64,000 nucleotides of DNA from Inquilinus sp. Marseille-Q2685. GTDB taxonomy: Bacteria; Pseudomonadota; Alphaproteobacteria; DSM-16000; Inquilinaceae. Of the stretch, positions 37,837 through 44,467 are shown one piece after another. The stretch is taken from positions 124,001 through 188,000 of the forward strand of contig NZ_CAKAKL010000003.1 of assembly GCF_916619195.1 (NCBI RefSeq), read 5' to 3'. The notes under the pieces were generated by a model that was not told the DNA's origin, ran no database searches, and was given only the letters and a program-made list of their open reading frames with translations. The translations under genes were made by a program, and so were the position numbers. The number at the start of each line of letters is the position of its first letter. The first letter of the stretch is position 1.

Positions 37837-40686
<2,850 letters not shown>

Positions 40687-40846
40687 CGCCAGGATCACTC
40701 ATGCGGGAAGGGCGTCCCCGGGCTCCGGGCACGCCGATGTGCAATATGGGGCGGGTGAAGCCCGAAAGCGACTCCGGCCCGGCTGCCGGATCGCTGCAAG
40801 GGCTGCGGCCGCGCTCCGCCCCGCAGCGAGTCCGATGGCAGGACTC

Positions 40847-40861
40847 GAACATATCGGGAAC
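40847..40861. promoter_or_regulatory. LexA (SOS) box, perfect alphaproteobacterial type
   Basis: GAAC-ATATCGG-GAAC, which on the minus strand is GTTC-N7-GTTC, the direct-repeat SOS box of alphaproteobacteria. It lies in the uvrA-EndoU divergent region, 160 bases from the uvrA start and 133 from the nuclease start, so it could govern both. uvrA is a classical SOS gene. Confidence 0.78.
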
Positions 40862-40994
40862 GTTGCGGTCAAGCGGAAAGCAAGATAGGATGCCTGTCCA
40901 GAGCCTTCCAGGGGCATGAATCCCCGAGGCTTCGGTGCTTCGCAGGCGATGCGGCAGGGTGCGGAGCGATCGGATCCGCCGCGCCGGAGAGTCC

Positions 40995-41531
40995 ATGATC
41001 CGTCGGGTCGGCCTGGTCGCGCTTCTGCTGCTGCTGTCGGGGGCCGGCCATTCGATGGCTGCGGCGCTCGACTGCAGCGACGCCGGCAAGCGGCTGTGGA
41101 GCCGCAGCGACCCCCAGGTCAATCTCAGCCACATCTTCTGCGGAGAGATCGGCCGCAACGGCGACCCCAAGGGGTTCCACTCACGCGCCGCCGGGCTGCC
41201 GACCGGCGCGGTCGACCGGGTGGAGGAGACCGCGCATCGTGATGGCGAGGTCTATGACGCGACCGTGATCTTCAGCAACGGCCGGCGCAAGCGGTCGACC
41301 TTCTATCCCGACGACTGCTCGGCCGAGGCGATTCTGCGCTCGGTCCTCTATGCCTGGCGCAACCAGACCGGTGAGCATCCGGCGTGGGGTGTGCTCGGCC
41401 CGTCTGCACCGGACGGGGGGAGCCGGGGGGATGGCTATTGCCGCGACGACCGCGGCCGGCCCTTCGAGATCCGCATCGGCACGGTCCAGCGCCGCGGCCA
41501 GGACGCGGTCAACACCGCGTTCCCGAACTGA
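40995..41531 (+). CDS. Exported EndoU-like nuclease
   Basis: A 178-residue protein. A signal peptide (about 23 residues, L-V-A-L-L-L-L-L core, ending M-A-A-A) precedes a bacterial EndoU-type domain: N-L-S-H-I-F-C-G-E-I with His46, then G-D-P-K-G-F-H-S-R with His62, and the strand R-K-R-S-T-F-Y-P-D-D-C-S. These are the two catalytic histidines and the third motif of EndoU RNases as used in CDI toxins. Four cysteines (27, 49, 108, 149) would suit disulfides in the periplasm. Start ATG at 40995; the open frame upstream is unsupported. It is followed after nine bases by a small gene that may be its partner. Confidence 0.72.
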   Translation: MIRRVGLVALLLLLSGAGHSMAAALDCSDAGKRLWSRSDPQVNLSHIFCGEIGRNGDPKGFHSRAAGLPTGAVDRVEETAHRDGEVYDATVIFSNGRRKRSTFYPDDCSAEAILRSVLYAWRNQTGEHPAWGVLGPSAPDGGSRGDGYCRDDRGRPFEIRIGTVQRRGQDAVNTAFPN

Positions 41532-41540
41532 GAGGCCGGG

Positions 41541-41900
41541 ATGAAGGGAAAGCACAGCACCATCGAGGTCACCCGCGACGCCCAGGGCCGGCCCCGGGTC
41601 GTGCCCGGCACCGCGGCGCCGATCCTGGCTGATTTCCTCGAGACCGACCTGCGCGGCGACGCCGCCTGGGCGGCCCGGGTGGCCGAGCGCCTGGGCGAGG
41701 CCGGGGAGGGGGGAGAGCCGATCACCGGCAATCTCTATGCGCTGGAGATCCGCGGCGCCCAGTCGGTGCTGCGCAACATCCACGACGCCAAGGTGCCGGC
41801 GCTCGTGCTGCCGACCCGGGATCTGGCTGCGGCGGTCGGTGCCTGGCTGGCGGCGCTGCGCAGGCCCGGACATGCGGCGCCGCCGCGTCGCAAGAAATGA
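41541..41900 (+). CDS. Small cytoplasmic protein, possible EndoU partner/immunity
   Basis: A 119-residue protein of no family I recognise. It starts with a beta-like K-G-K-H-S-T-I-E-V-T-R-D-A-Q-G-R-P-R-V-V and continues A-P-I-L-A-D-F-L-E-T-D-L, a mixed alpha/beta pattern with no signal peptide or cysteines. It ends in a basic tail. Its start is nine bases after the EndoU stop, so the two are surely co-transcribed. A cytoplasmic partner coded right after an exported nuclease is the arrangement of toxin/immunity pairs; this is inference from position only. Confidence 0.6.
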   Translation: MKGKHSTIEVTRDAQGRPRVVPGTAAPILADFLETDLRGDAAWAARVAERLGEAGEGGEPITGNLYALEIRGAQSVLRNIHDAKVPALVLPTRDLAAAVGAWLAALRRPGHAAPPRRKK

Positions 41901-41915
41901 GCCTGGCGGGGGCTC

Positions 41916-41930
41916 GAACGTGATTGGAAT
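41916..41930. promoter_or_regulatory. LexA-like box before ssb (7 of 8 key bases)
   Basis: GAAC-GTGATTG-GAAT fits the GAAC-N7-GAAC direct repeat at seven of eight fixed positions, 58 bases before the ssb start. ssb is an SOS gene in several bacteria. The last-base mismatch lowers confidence. Confidence 0.5.
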
Positions 41931-41988: not shown

Positions 41989-42540
41989 ATGGCTGGCAGC
42001 GTTAACAAGGTCATTCTGGTCGGCAATCTCGGCCGCGATCCGGAGATCCGGTCCTTCCAGAACGGTGGCCGCGTGGCGAATCTCTCGGTCGCGACGTCGG
42101 AGAACTGGAAGGACCGCAACACCGGCGAGCGCAAGGAGCGCACCGAGTGGCACCGCGTCGTGGTGTTCAACGACGCGCTGGTCGGGGTGGTCGAGCGGTT
42201 CCTGAAGAAGGGCTCGAAGATCTACATCGAGGGCCAGCTCGAGACCCGGAAATACACCGACCAGAGCGGCGCCGAGCGCTACACCACCGAGGTGGTGCTG
42301 CGCCCGTTCCGGGGCGAGCTGACCATGCTCGACGGCCGTGAAGGCGGCGGTGGTGGCGGCGGCGGCTTCGAGGACGAGGGCGGCTCGGGCGGCGGCTACG
42401 GCGGTGGCGGCTATGGCGGCGGTGGTCGGTCTTCCGGCGGCGGTGGTTATGGCGGCGGGTCGTCGGGCGGCGGCTCCTCCGGTGGTGGCGGCGGACGCGG
42501 CCCGATGGCGGACGACCTCGACGACGAGATCCCGTTCTGA
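41989..42540 (+). CDS. ssb: Single-stranded DNA-binding protein
   Basis: A 183-residue SSB. Residues 1-110 are the OB fold ([49 protein letters not shown]). A Gly/Ser/Tyr-rich disordered linker (about 115-170, of low complexity at DNA level) leads to the acidic tip D-D-E-I-P-F that recruits repair and replication proteins. The ATG at 41989 was chosen over an in-frame GTG six codons upstream. Nearest downstream is the group II intron, 13 bases after the stop. Confidence 0.97.
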
Positions 42541-43129: not shown

Positions 43130-44467
43130 GTGATTGCGAAAGCTCAAAACACACCGTTTGAAAGGGTGCGAGTACTTCAGCGGTCCCTATACCGAGCAGC
43201 CAAGGTGAATCCGACGCGGAAATTCGGGGTGCTCTATGACAAGGTGTGCCGGGAAGATGTCCTTGCGCTCGCCTACGGACAGGTCAAGGCCAATGGCGGT
43301 GCCGCTGGCATCGACCATCAGACCTTCGCACATATCGAAGGCCGGATTGGTGTTGACCGCTTTCTCGGCGAGCTTCAGGGAAAACTTCTGGCAAAACGCT
43401 ATCGTCCCCAGCCGGTCCGACGGGTCTATATCCCGAAGGCCGACGGATCGAAGCGTCCGCTTGGCATTCCTGTCATAGAAGATCGTGTAGTACAGGCAGC
43501 AGTGAAGCTGGTCATCGAACCGCTGTTCGAGGCCGACTTCAAGGATTTCTCCTATGGGTTCCGGCCTCGCAAGAGCGCCCATCACGCCCTGCGGGAAATC
43601 TACAAATGGATCAACTTCGGTTGCGTCCATGTTGTCGATGCGGACCTCAAATCGTATTTCGATACGATCCCGCACGACAAGCTGCTGCTCTCCGTAAGGT
43701 CGCGGGTCATAGACCGTTCAATTGTGAAATTGATCGGGATGTGGCTCACAGCCGGAGTCATGGAGGAAATGCAGGTCCGGAAGGAGACGACCGGCACGCC
43801 ACAGGGCGGTGTTATCTCGCCGCTCCTGGCCAATCTGTACCTCAACTGGCTGGACCGTTTTTGGGAGAAGAAGGCGTTCGGCAAGCGTCCGCACGATGCA
43901 CATATTGTGCGGTATGCCGACGACTTCGTCATTCTGTGCAGCAAGGAGCCGGAAGCCTATCTGGACGAGGCCCGCAAGGTACTCGACCGGCTGGGTCTCA
44001 CTCTGAATGCGCAGAAAACACGGATCGTGGATGTCCGCAGCGAGCCGTTCGACTTTCTCGGCCATCGCTTCGCGGTGCAGCCGTCGAAACGCGACGGGAA
44101 GATGCGCACATACTACTATCCGGCTCCCAAGGCGATGGCGGCGGTCAAGAAGAAGATCAGGGAAGTTGTCCGAACGGGACAGCACCGTGACCTACCCGTC
44201 CTCATCAAGGAGCAGGTCAATCCGATCCTGCGAGGATGGGGAAACTACTTCAAGACCGGCAATTCGAGGCTCCACCTCAAAAGCATCGCCAACTACACGA
44301 TGTGGACGCTCTGCATCATGCTGAGGAAGAAGCACAAGAAGCGGTCGAAGGGGTGGAGGGACCACCCGCCGTCATGGTTCTACGACTATCATGGCCTGTT
44401 CAAGCTTCCGAGCTTATCGGTCACGGGAGAGGAAACCAGCCGGTATGGCCGTCTTGTCGCGCCGTAA
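43130..44467 (+). CDS. ltrA: Group II intron reverse transcriptase/maturase
   Basis: A 445-residue intron-encoded protein starting at GTG 43130, preceded by G-G-A-G-G. Reverse transcriptase blocks: G-A-A-G-I-D-H-Q-T-F, R-P-L-G-I-P-V-I-E-D-R, D-A-D-L-K-S-Y-F-D-T-I-P-H, T-G-T-P-Q-G-G-V-I-S-P-L-L-A-N-L-Y, and the catalytic Y-A-D-D near residue 263. The maturase (X) domain includes V-N-P-I-L-R-G-W-G-N-Y-F. No HNH-type endonuclease with C-x2-C motifs follows, so it is an endonuclease-lacking IEP. It would splice and move its own intron. Full-length, no frameshift seen. Confidence 0.95.
   Translation: MIAKAQNTPFERVRVLQRSLYRAAKVNPTRKFGVLYDKVCREDVLALAYGQVKANGGAAGIDHQTFAHIEGRIGVDRFLGELQGKLLAKRYRPQPVRRVYIPKADGSKRPLGIPVIEDRVVQAAVKLVIEPLFEADFKDFSYGFRPRKSAHHALREIYKWINFGCVHVVDADLKSYFDTIPHDKLLLSVRSRVIDRSIVKLIGMWLTAGVMEEMQVRKETTGTPQGGVISPLLANLYLNWLDRFWEKKAFGKRPHDAHIVRYADDFVILCSKEPEAYLDEARKVLDRLGLTLNAQKTRIVDVRSEPFDFLGHRFAVQPSKRDGKMRTYYYPAPKAMAAVKKKIREVVRTGQHRDLPVLIKEQVNPILRGWGNYFKTGNSRLHLKSIANYTMWTLCIMLRKKHKKRSKGWRDHPPSWFYDYHGLFKLPSLSVTGEETSRYGRLVAP

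Follow-up and report, generated by a model that had tools for sequence, protein, structure and literature searches.

A putative EndoU effector/immunity operon between uvrA and ssb in Inquilinus, beside a conserved LexA-type box

The described systems closest to the locus reported here pair a nuclease with a protein that holds it in check. As set out in the accessible parts of the respective sources, MafB (MGI-1, Neisseria meningitidis NEM8013) is a secreted EndoU toxin with MafI as its immunity protein (PMC4287609), CdiA-CT/CdiI of E. coli STEC_O31 joins an EndoU nuclease to a cognate immunity protein (PMC9086364), an Rhs-EndoU cassette carries a MafI-type immunity gene (PMC10469887), and barnase is an exported ribonuclease with an intracellular inhibitor, barstar (PMC8625414). 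EndoU and barnase have the BECR fold in common, and SUKH, SuFu and Imm28 proteins are encoded with EndoU toxins (both from the accessible part of PMC3482391).

The window analysed here, by which we mean the whole 64-kb stretch of DNA (positions 124001-188000 of contig 3 in a genome of 7.29 Mb), carries two genes between uvrA (37837-40698, minus strand, with its start at about 40686) and ssb (41989-42540, plus strand): an EndoU-type ribonuclease gene encoding P0001 (178 aa; 40995-41531, plus strand) and, nine bases later, the gene of P0002 (119 aa; 41541-41900, plus strand), a proposed cytoplasmic immunity protein or inhibitor and distant relative of UPF0231/YacL. This layout had been put forward in an earlier note on the same DNA and is borne out by the ORF positions, from which uvrA and ssb were also placed. 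The nearest named relatives of the genome are four Inquilinus limosus records and one filed as Mycobacterium sp. KBS0706, a group that we call Inquilinus. Both genes occur in 6/6 genomes of the genus. Purifying selection acts on each, with a median dN/dS of 0.25 for P0001 and 0.35 for P0002 (15 pairs each, from six Inquilinus-group genomes).

The two genes probably form an effector/immunity operon, consisting of an exported EndoU ribonuclease and a cytoplasmic inhibitor in the manner of barnase/barstar or MafB/MafI, with expression that DNA damage may raise. The likeness to MafB/MafI would lie in a secreted EndoU nuclease with its immunity gene directly downstream, that to barnase/barstar in an exported ribonuclease with an intracellular inhibitor, and that to CdiA-CT/CdiI and the Rhs-EndoU cassette in the combination of EndoU with cognate immunity. 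Each comparison also has its differences: MafB is modular, with an N- plus a C-terminal domain; CdiA-CT and Rhs-EndoU form the C-terminal parts of large delivery proteins, whereas P0001 stands alone; and barnase belongs to a different nuclease family. P0002 was rejected as a MafI protein (NF033691 not matched in an NCBIfam scan up to E 1) and as a barstar (no barstar match in a Pfam scan up to E 1), and although it is encoded with an EndoU protein, as SUKH, SuFu and Imm28 proteins are, it matches none of these three in Pfam.

Membership of P0001 in the EndoU family, which the earlier note had read from histidines 46 and 62 and an S-T-F-Y-P-D strand, all present in the protein, is supported by a match to PF14436 (EndoU_bacteria; E 2e-13, 51.3 bits against a cut-off of 25.3). 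In an alignment of 24 rows, comprising P0001 and 23 relatives (one Rhs-like EndoU among these; six of the rows are Inquilinus sequences closely related to each other), H46, H62, S101 and T174 are invariant throughout, and these positions correspond to the EndoU catalytic set of H, H, S/N/T and S/N/T given in the accessible part of PMC3482391; RNase activity would be expected of such a protein. The ATG start codon at 40995 is kept in 6/6 aligned sequences, and the 24 residues that it opens (40995-41066, plus strand; MIRRVGLVALLLLLSGAGHSMAAA) have by eye the look of a Sec signal peptide, with comparable hydrophobic N-termini in relatives, so that P0001 is probably exported. It has cysteines at positions 27, 49, 108 and 149. 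Cys108 and Cys149 are both present in 16/24 rows and both absent in the other 8, and Cys27 and Cys49 are concordant in 22/24 rows (both in 18, neither in 4); this pairwise co-occurrence points to two disulfides, and thereby to a fold that is completed outside the cytoplasm. The protein consists of the N-terminal hydrophobic stretch and EndoU only, which is not the large-delivery-protein architecture of the CdiA, Rhs and MafB polymorphic toxins. A sequence search of the PDB returned no credible relative of P0001 (best E 0.14) or of P0004 (none to E 0.01), and relatives of P0001 were absent from plasmid and phage sequences at E 1e-5.

The alphaproteobacterial LexA consensus is GAACN7GAAC, according to the accessible part of PMC3091678, and the earlier note had drawn attention to a perfect site of this form that faces the nuclease gene as well as uvrA. 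The site (GAACATATCGGGAAC, 40847-40861, plus strand) is indeed present, as the sole perfect GAAC-N7-GAAC in the 64-kb window; since chance alone gives 0.88 per window, the site by itself is not significant. Unlike the site by itself, its place and conservation are significant: no invariant block in the uvrA-EndoU gap is longer than the one that contains it, whose 29 columns (40845-40873) are identical in 6/6 sequences of an alignment with ragged ends, and 0/20,000 column shuffles gave a 29-column run. One base after the box begins a promoter-like element that faces the EndoU gene (TTGCGG, 17 bases, TAGGAT; 40863-40891, plus strand), with both hexamers invariant in the six sequences and 8/12 agreement with the sigma-70 consensus. 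The putative EndoU promoter region would have this conserved LexA-type box in common with uvrA.

A competing explanation, which we place slightly below even, is that the box belongs to uvrA alone, the EndoU pair being constitutive or otherwise regulated and its position an accident of insertion. Perfect boxes lie within 600 bases upstream of uvrA in 16 of 43 loci, namely in all 6 Inquilinus loci and in 10 of the 37 others (8 of these 10 within 160 bases; L141 has no sequence upstream). At base frequencies of one quarter, chance would place about 0.7 boxes in 37 stretches of this size, which makes a role of the box at uvrA credible. The same explanation is favoured by an 11-column conserved block on the uvrA side, about 11 bases from the box, by the presence of other cargo in the same gap in two relatives (G012 and G013), and by EndoU genes elsewhere, since among 21 other alphaproteobacterial EndoU loci a perfect box is absent from the stretch examined in 20 and lies about 1 kb downstream of EndoU in the remaining one, L062. 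However, the 29-column block extends past the box into the promoter-like element toward EndoU, and on the uvrA side the two larger blocks of conserved columns lie about 70 and about 100 bases away; if anything, the position of the box would suit EndoU better than uvrA.

The SOS control proposed in the earlier note therefore stands in part. The invariant box directly adjoins a promoter-like element that faces the nuclease, but it fits uvrA alone too, EndoU elsewhere is mostly without it, the lexA gene of the window genome has one-mismatch sites only and no perfect box, and the box proposed before ssb is not conserved. We give SOS control of the EndoU operon about an even chance, and damage-triggered expression appears plausible in Inquilinus only. 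The proposed ssb box (GAACGTGATTGGAAT, 41916-41930, plus strand) does exist as a near match but was rejected as a LexA site because it keeps the one-mismatch form in only 2/6 sequences; it overlaps TTGGAA-17-TAGGGT, which is likely the ssb promoter. A consensus promoter scan found neither TTGGAA-17-TAGGGT nor TTGCGG-17-TAGGAT, the latter being too weak for the scan.

The genome as a whole has 147 GAAC-N7-GAAC sites, against 37 for a reversed control. This excess was rejected as proof of a LexA regulon, because 21 of the 100 sites listed (of the 147) read GAACATANCATGAAC, a repeated 15-mer that mimics such a regulon. Five of these sites fell among 30 loci that were fetched: those in L001 and L015, and possibly L024, stand at ORF starts of a repeated gene family, while those in L020 and L030 are not evidently so placed by a rough ORF filter. 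Positions of the 15-mer in G000 include L001:564, L002:1501 (a close variant) and L015:1501. The repeated gene family behind it has products such as MDATQTDR...QEERAARHLRMLARAADVHMEI, and the one member scanned had no Pfam match.

The 43 uvrA loci, collected with the N-terminus of the uvrA product of the window as query, comprise 15 of the order and the best 28 of 52 matched genomes (58 searched) of the class. With ssb scored as a divergent neighbour within 1500 bases, ssb is divergent from uvrA in 27/43 loci, in agreement with the statement of the earlier note that the two are often divergent neighbours. EndoU stands beside uvrA in the six Inquilinus genomes and in two further cases: in G006 (L139, C188), which represents a second genus of the Inquilinus family and has the EndoU/partner pair, a HigA-like gene lies between, with a HigB-like ORF further up (both named by eye), and in G314, of another family, EndoU has no partner. 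In G012 and G013 (L138, L140), which have no EndoU match, a glutathione-S-transferase-like gene (by eye) fills the uvrA-ssb gap. Since HigA-like or glutathione-S-transferase-like genes are found there in relatives, the gap takes different cargo. Downstream of ssb, the window encodes a group II intron reverse transcriptase/maturase (43130-44467; RVT_1 E 2e-39, GIIM E 1e-13).

P0002 had been described as unrecognised, which holds in single-sequence searches only, where Pfam, NCBIfam and the PDB gave nothing usable; by profile it is a member of a family. It resembles small ORFs that immediately follow EndoU in other alphaproteobacteria, and a profile built without the Inquilinus rows puts P0002 at the top of the 647 segments of the window (E 3e-18, with the next at 0.47). 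Because the partner profile was built from the very loci that were then counted, three non-circular tests were made, namely leave-one-out profiles, new EndoU loci and another order. In the first, the left-out partner outscored every other segment of its stretch in 14/14 loci tested (of 16 rows), with E-values, for small segment sets, of 4e-19 to 9e-8 and the best other segment at 0.038. In the second, the partner was found directly downstream of EndoU in three of six further loci (L120, E 5e-14; L121, 1e-18; L122, 3e-20), and the profile found none in L123, L124 and L125. In the third, the order of G663, which we infer to be enterobacterial because the UPF0231 gene of L092 (family f199, the same as G663) shares about 73% identity with E. 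coli yacL, 19 EndoU matches occur in 15 of 295 genomes, and a purely alphaproteobacterial partner profile matches the gene directly behind EndoU at 6 of the 19; E-values are per stretch, with the weakest at 9e-4, and no other match in these stretches reached E 0.01. The other 13 EndoU matches of this order have no partner gene by profile. In the PDB, the profile of alignment A1 had no credible match (best E 0.006), a search with P0003 returned designed proteins and a lectin only, and canonical YacL likewise has no credible relative there. A weak match of P0002 in G008 (E 8e-4) falls within an open frame of 655 residues, without EndoU, and was taken for chance.

In a class sample of 385 alphaproteobacterial genomes, an EndoU match was found in 20, and the partner lies directly downstream of EndoU in 12 of these 20, a count made with a profile built from these loci and with up to 12 candidates per genome scored, so that misses are possible. 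Partner matches occur in at least 12 genomes of the sample, all 12 with EndoU; one of the genomes, G280, has in addition a weak second, diverged copy (L128:1913-2326) about 3 kb from its EndoU pair and without an EndoU of its own. Among the up to 12 candidates scored per genome, no such partner was found in the other 8 EndoU genomes, whose EndoU proteins are of the stand-alone exported type (L066, L068) or of other types (L064, L071-L074, L076), and none was found for the EndoU of Thalassospira (L036). With 82-85 aa, the partners of L039, L067 and L069 are short, and these genes may be decaying. Three loci of one genus (L058, L059 and L063; family f41) have the EndoU pair at a different stable location, behind a fliP-like gene and before a LysE-type exporter gene (by eye). 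Elsewhere in the alphaproteobacteria, in one genome, a MafI-like gene (L072:1725-1964; NF033691 E 1.9e-6, below cut-off) stands behind another EndoU type, which matches the C-terminal half of PF14436 only.

EndoU frames that are followed by the partner in the order of G663 continue into larger, partly Rhs-like proteins, and two partner-bearing EndoU sites look Rhs-type: L120, with an Rhs core just upstream of EndoU (TIGR03696, E 0.003, below cut-off), and L193, judged by eye. The partner of Inquilinus is related to small proteins that stand directly behind the EndoU domains of larger toxins, and by these comparisons the linkage of EndoU and partner spans many families and at least two protein architectures. 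A DNA search of E. coli genomes gave no match to the Rhs-EndoU pair of L120. In L192 (G894:C1), tandem EndoU domains (104613-104972 and 105474-105794) are each followed by a small ORF, of which the partner profile finds only the second. The recurrence, in unrelated genomes, of a small gene just after the nuclease (12/20, 3/6 and 6/19 in the three sets), together with the non-circular profiles, makes the immunity role that the earlier note had proposed for P0002 well supported by comparison, and the partner most likely keeps EndoU harmless inside the cell. The EndoU genes that lack the partner (in 8/20 genomes of the class and at 13/19 matches in the order of G663), the shortened partners, the second copy in G280 and a relative in G041, which has no EndoU match, speak against this role.

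An inhibitor of this kind need not imply antagonism, and P0001 might instead be a housekeeping exported RNase that scavenges outside RNA as barnase would, with P0002 only guarding against premature folding. We hold this to be possible but doubtful. The stand-alone form of P0001, without a delivery domain, agrees with it, as do the paired cysteines, which suit extracytoplasmic work, and the single EndoU match per genome with its stable place in the genus. Scavenging accounts poorly, however, for partner relatives directly behind EndoU in frames that extend into larger, partly Rhs-like proteins, for a partner relative in Proteus (68% identical) in a stretch with an Rhs-like fragment, where no EndoU gene was recognised by eye, and for the patchy presence of EndoU, in 20/385 genomes.

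The partner family is, at whole-family level, distantly related to UPF0231/YacL (PF06062). Of 16 aligned partners, 5 match PF06062 at E up to 1, the best at 1.7e-7, which is the only match among the aligned partners re-scanned that passes the cut-off; P0003 and the Proteus relative stand barely above it (25.3 and 26.2 bits against 25), and P0002 itself has no PF06062 match. In the reverse test, the partner profile matched 30/30 canonical UPF0231 loci with E-values from 1e-8 to 0.38, the weakest of which (toward E 0.38) are not significant on their own, and, up to E 10, no other of the 2650 control segments. The E. coli records listed give UPF0231 the name YacL; YacL is a common enterobacterial protein, and its gene has DNA matches in 5370/5426 E. 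coli genomes. Canonical UPF0231/YacL occurs in 51/398 Pseudomonadota genomes, of which 2 have an EndoU match and 49 do not, both counts being taken as the same genome draw. The earlier note had held that homologues of the second protein widespread without the nuclease would refute its proposal; this is the case for the distant branch, whereas in the EndoU-linked branch the partner is found in at least 12 alphaproteobacterial genomes, all with EndoU, with one exception: a UPF0231-like relative in G041 (L126:2846-3277, E 4e-6), an alphaproteobacterium without an EndoU match. This gene adjoins what look like transposase genes and is possibly an orphan immunity gene. On these comparisons the partner/UPF0231 family has two branches, one linked to EndoU and one whose members mostly occur without it. 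Our literature search, which most subscription journals lay outside, found no paper joining UPF0231/YacL to EndoU, and the terms UPF0231 and YacL are absent from the available text of PMC3482391, PMC10469887 and PMC13129497.

E. coli YacL binds RNA polymerase and NusG, according to the accessible part of PMC8196013, and the wider UPF0231 family is for this reason not made up of immunity proteins only. We consider it unlikely that UPF0231 as a whole descends from, or still acts as, an anti-EndoU immunity family while the Inquilinus pair is SOS-controlled, such that damaged cells would release the RNase and kin would be immune. Very unlikely, in our view, is that P0002 is a regulator or transcription-associated protein like YacL, placed behind EndoU for operon convenience, since EndoU linkage in many families and at least two protein architectures tells against it, even though the distant homology to a binder of RNA polymerase next to NusG (PMC8196013, accessible part) and the G041 relative without EndoU would agree with it.

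For the effector/immunity operon that we favour, the following course of events is proposed from sequence comparison. The EndoU protein would be made in the cytoplasm and held inactive there by the cytoplasmic inhibitor until Sec export, and disulfides would lock its fold outside the cell, where it may cut RNA in competing cells after uptake or RNA in the surroundings; its target would be competitor RNA or extracellular RNA. P0002 is predicted to bind and block the nuclease before export, or when the enzyme of a sister cell enters, and siblings would be protected by it. In Inquilinus, where the operon adjoins uvrA and has a LexA-type box in common with it, DNA damage may raise the output of the pair.

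The logic of a nuclease with its immunity protein is ordinary; the form that it takes here and the proposed immunity family are new. A small-protein family without a function gains a testable one, and the widespread UPF0231/YacL family would, through its distant homology, be tied to EndoU immunity. The locus would also represent a compact exported EndoU effector/immunity pair for which no large delivery protein is needed. Colicins are SOS-induced, and if SOS control of the Inquilinus operon holds true, the pair would be an EndoU analogue of them.
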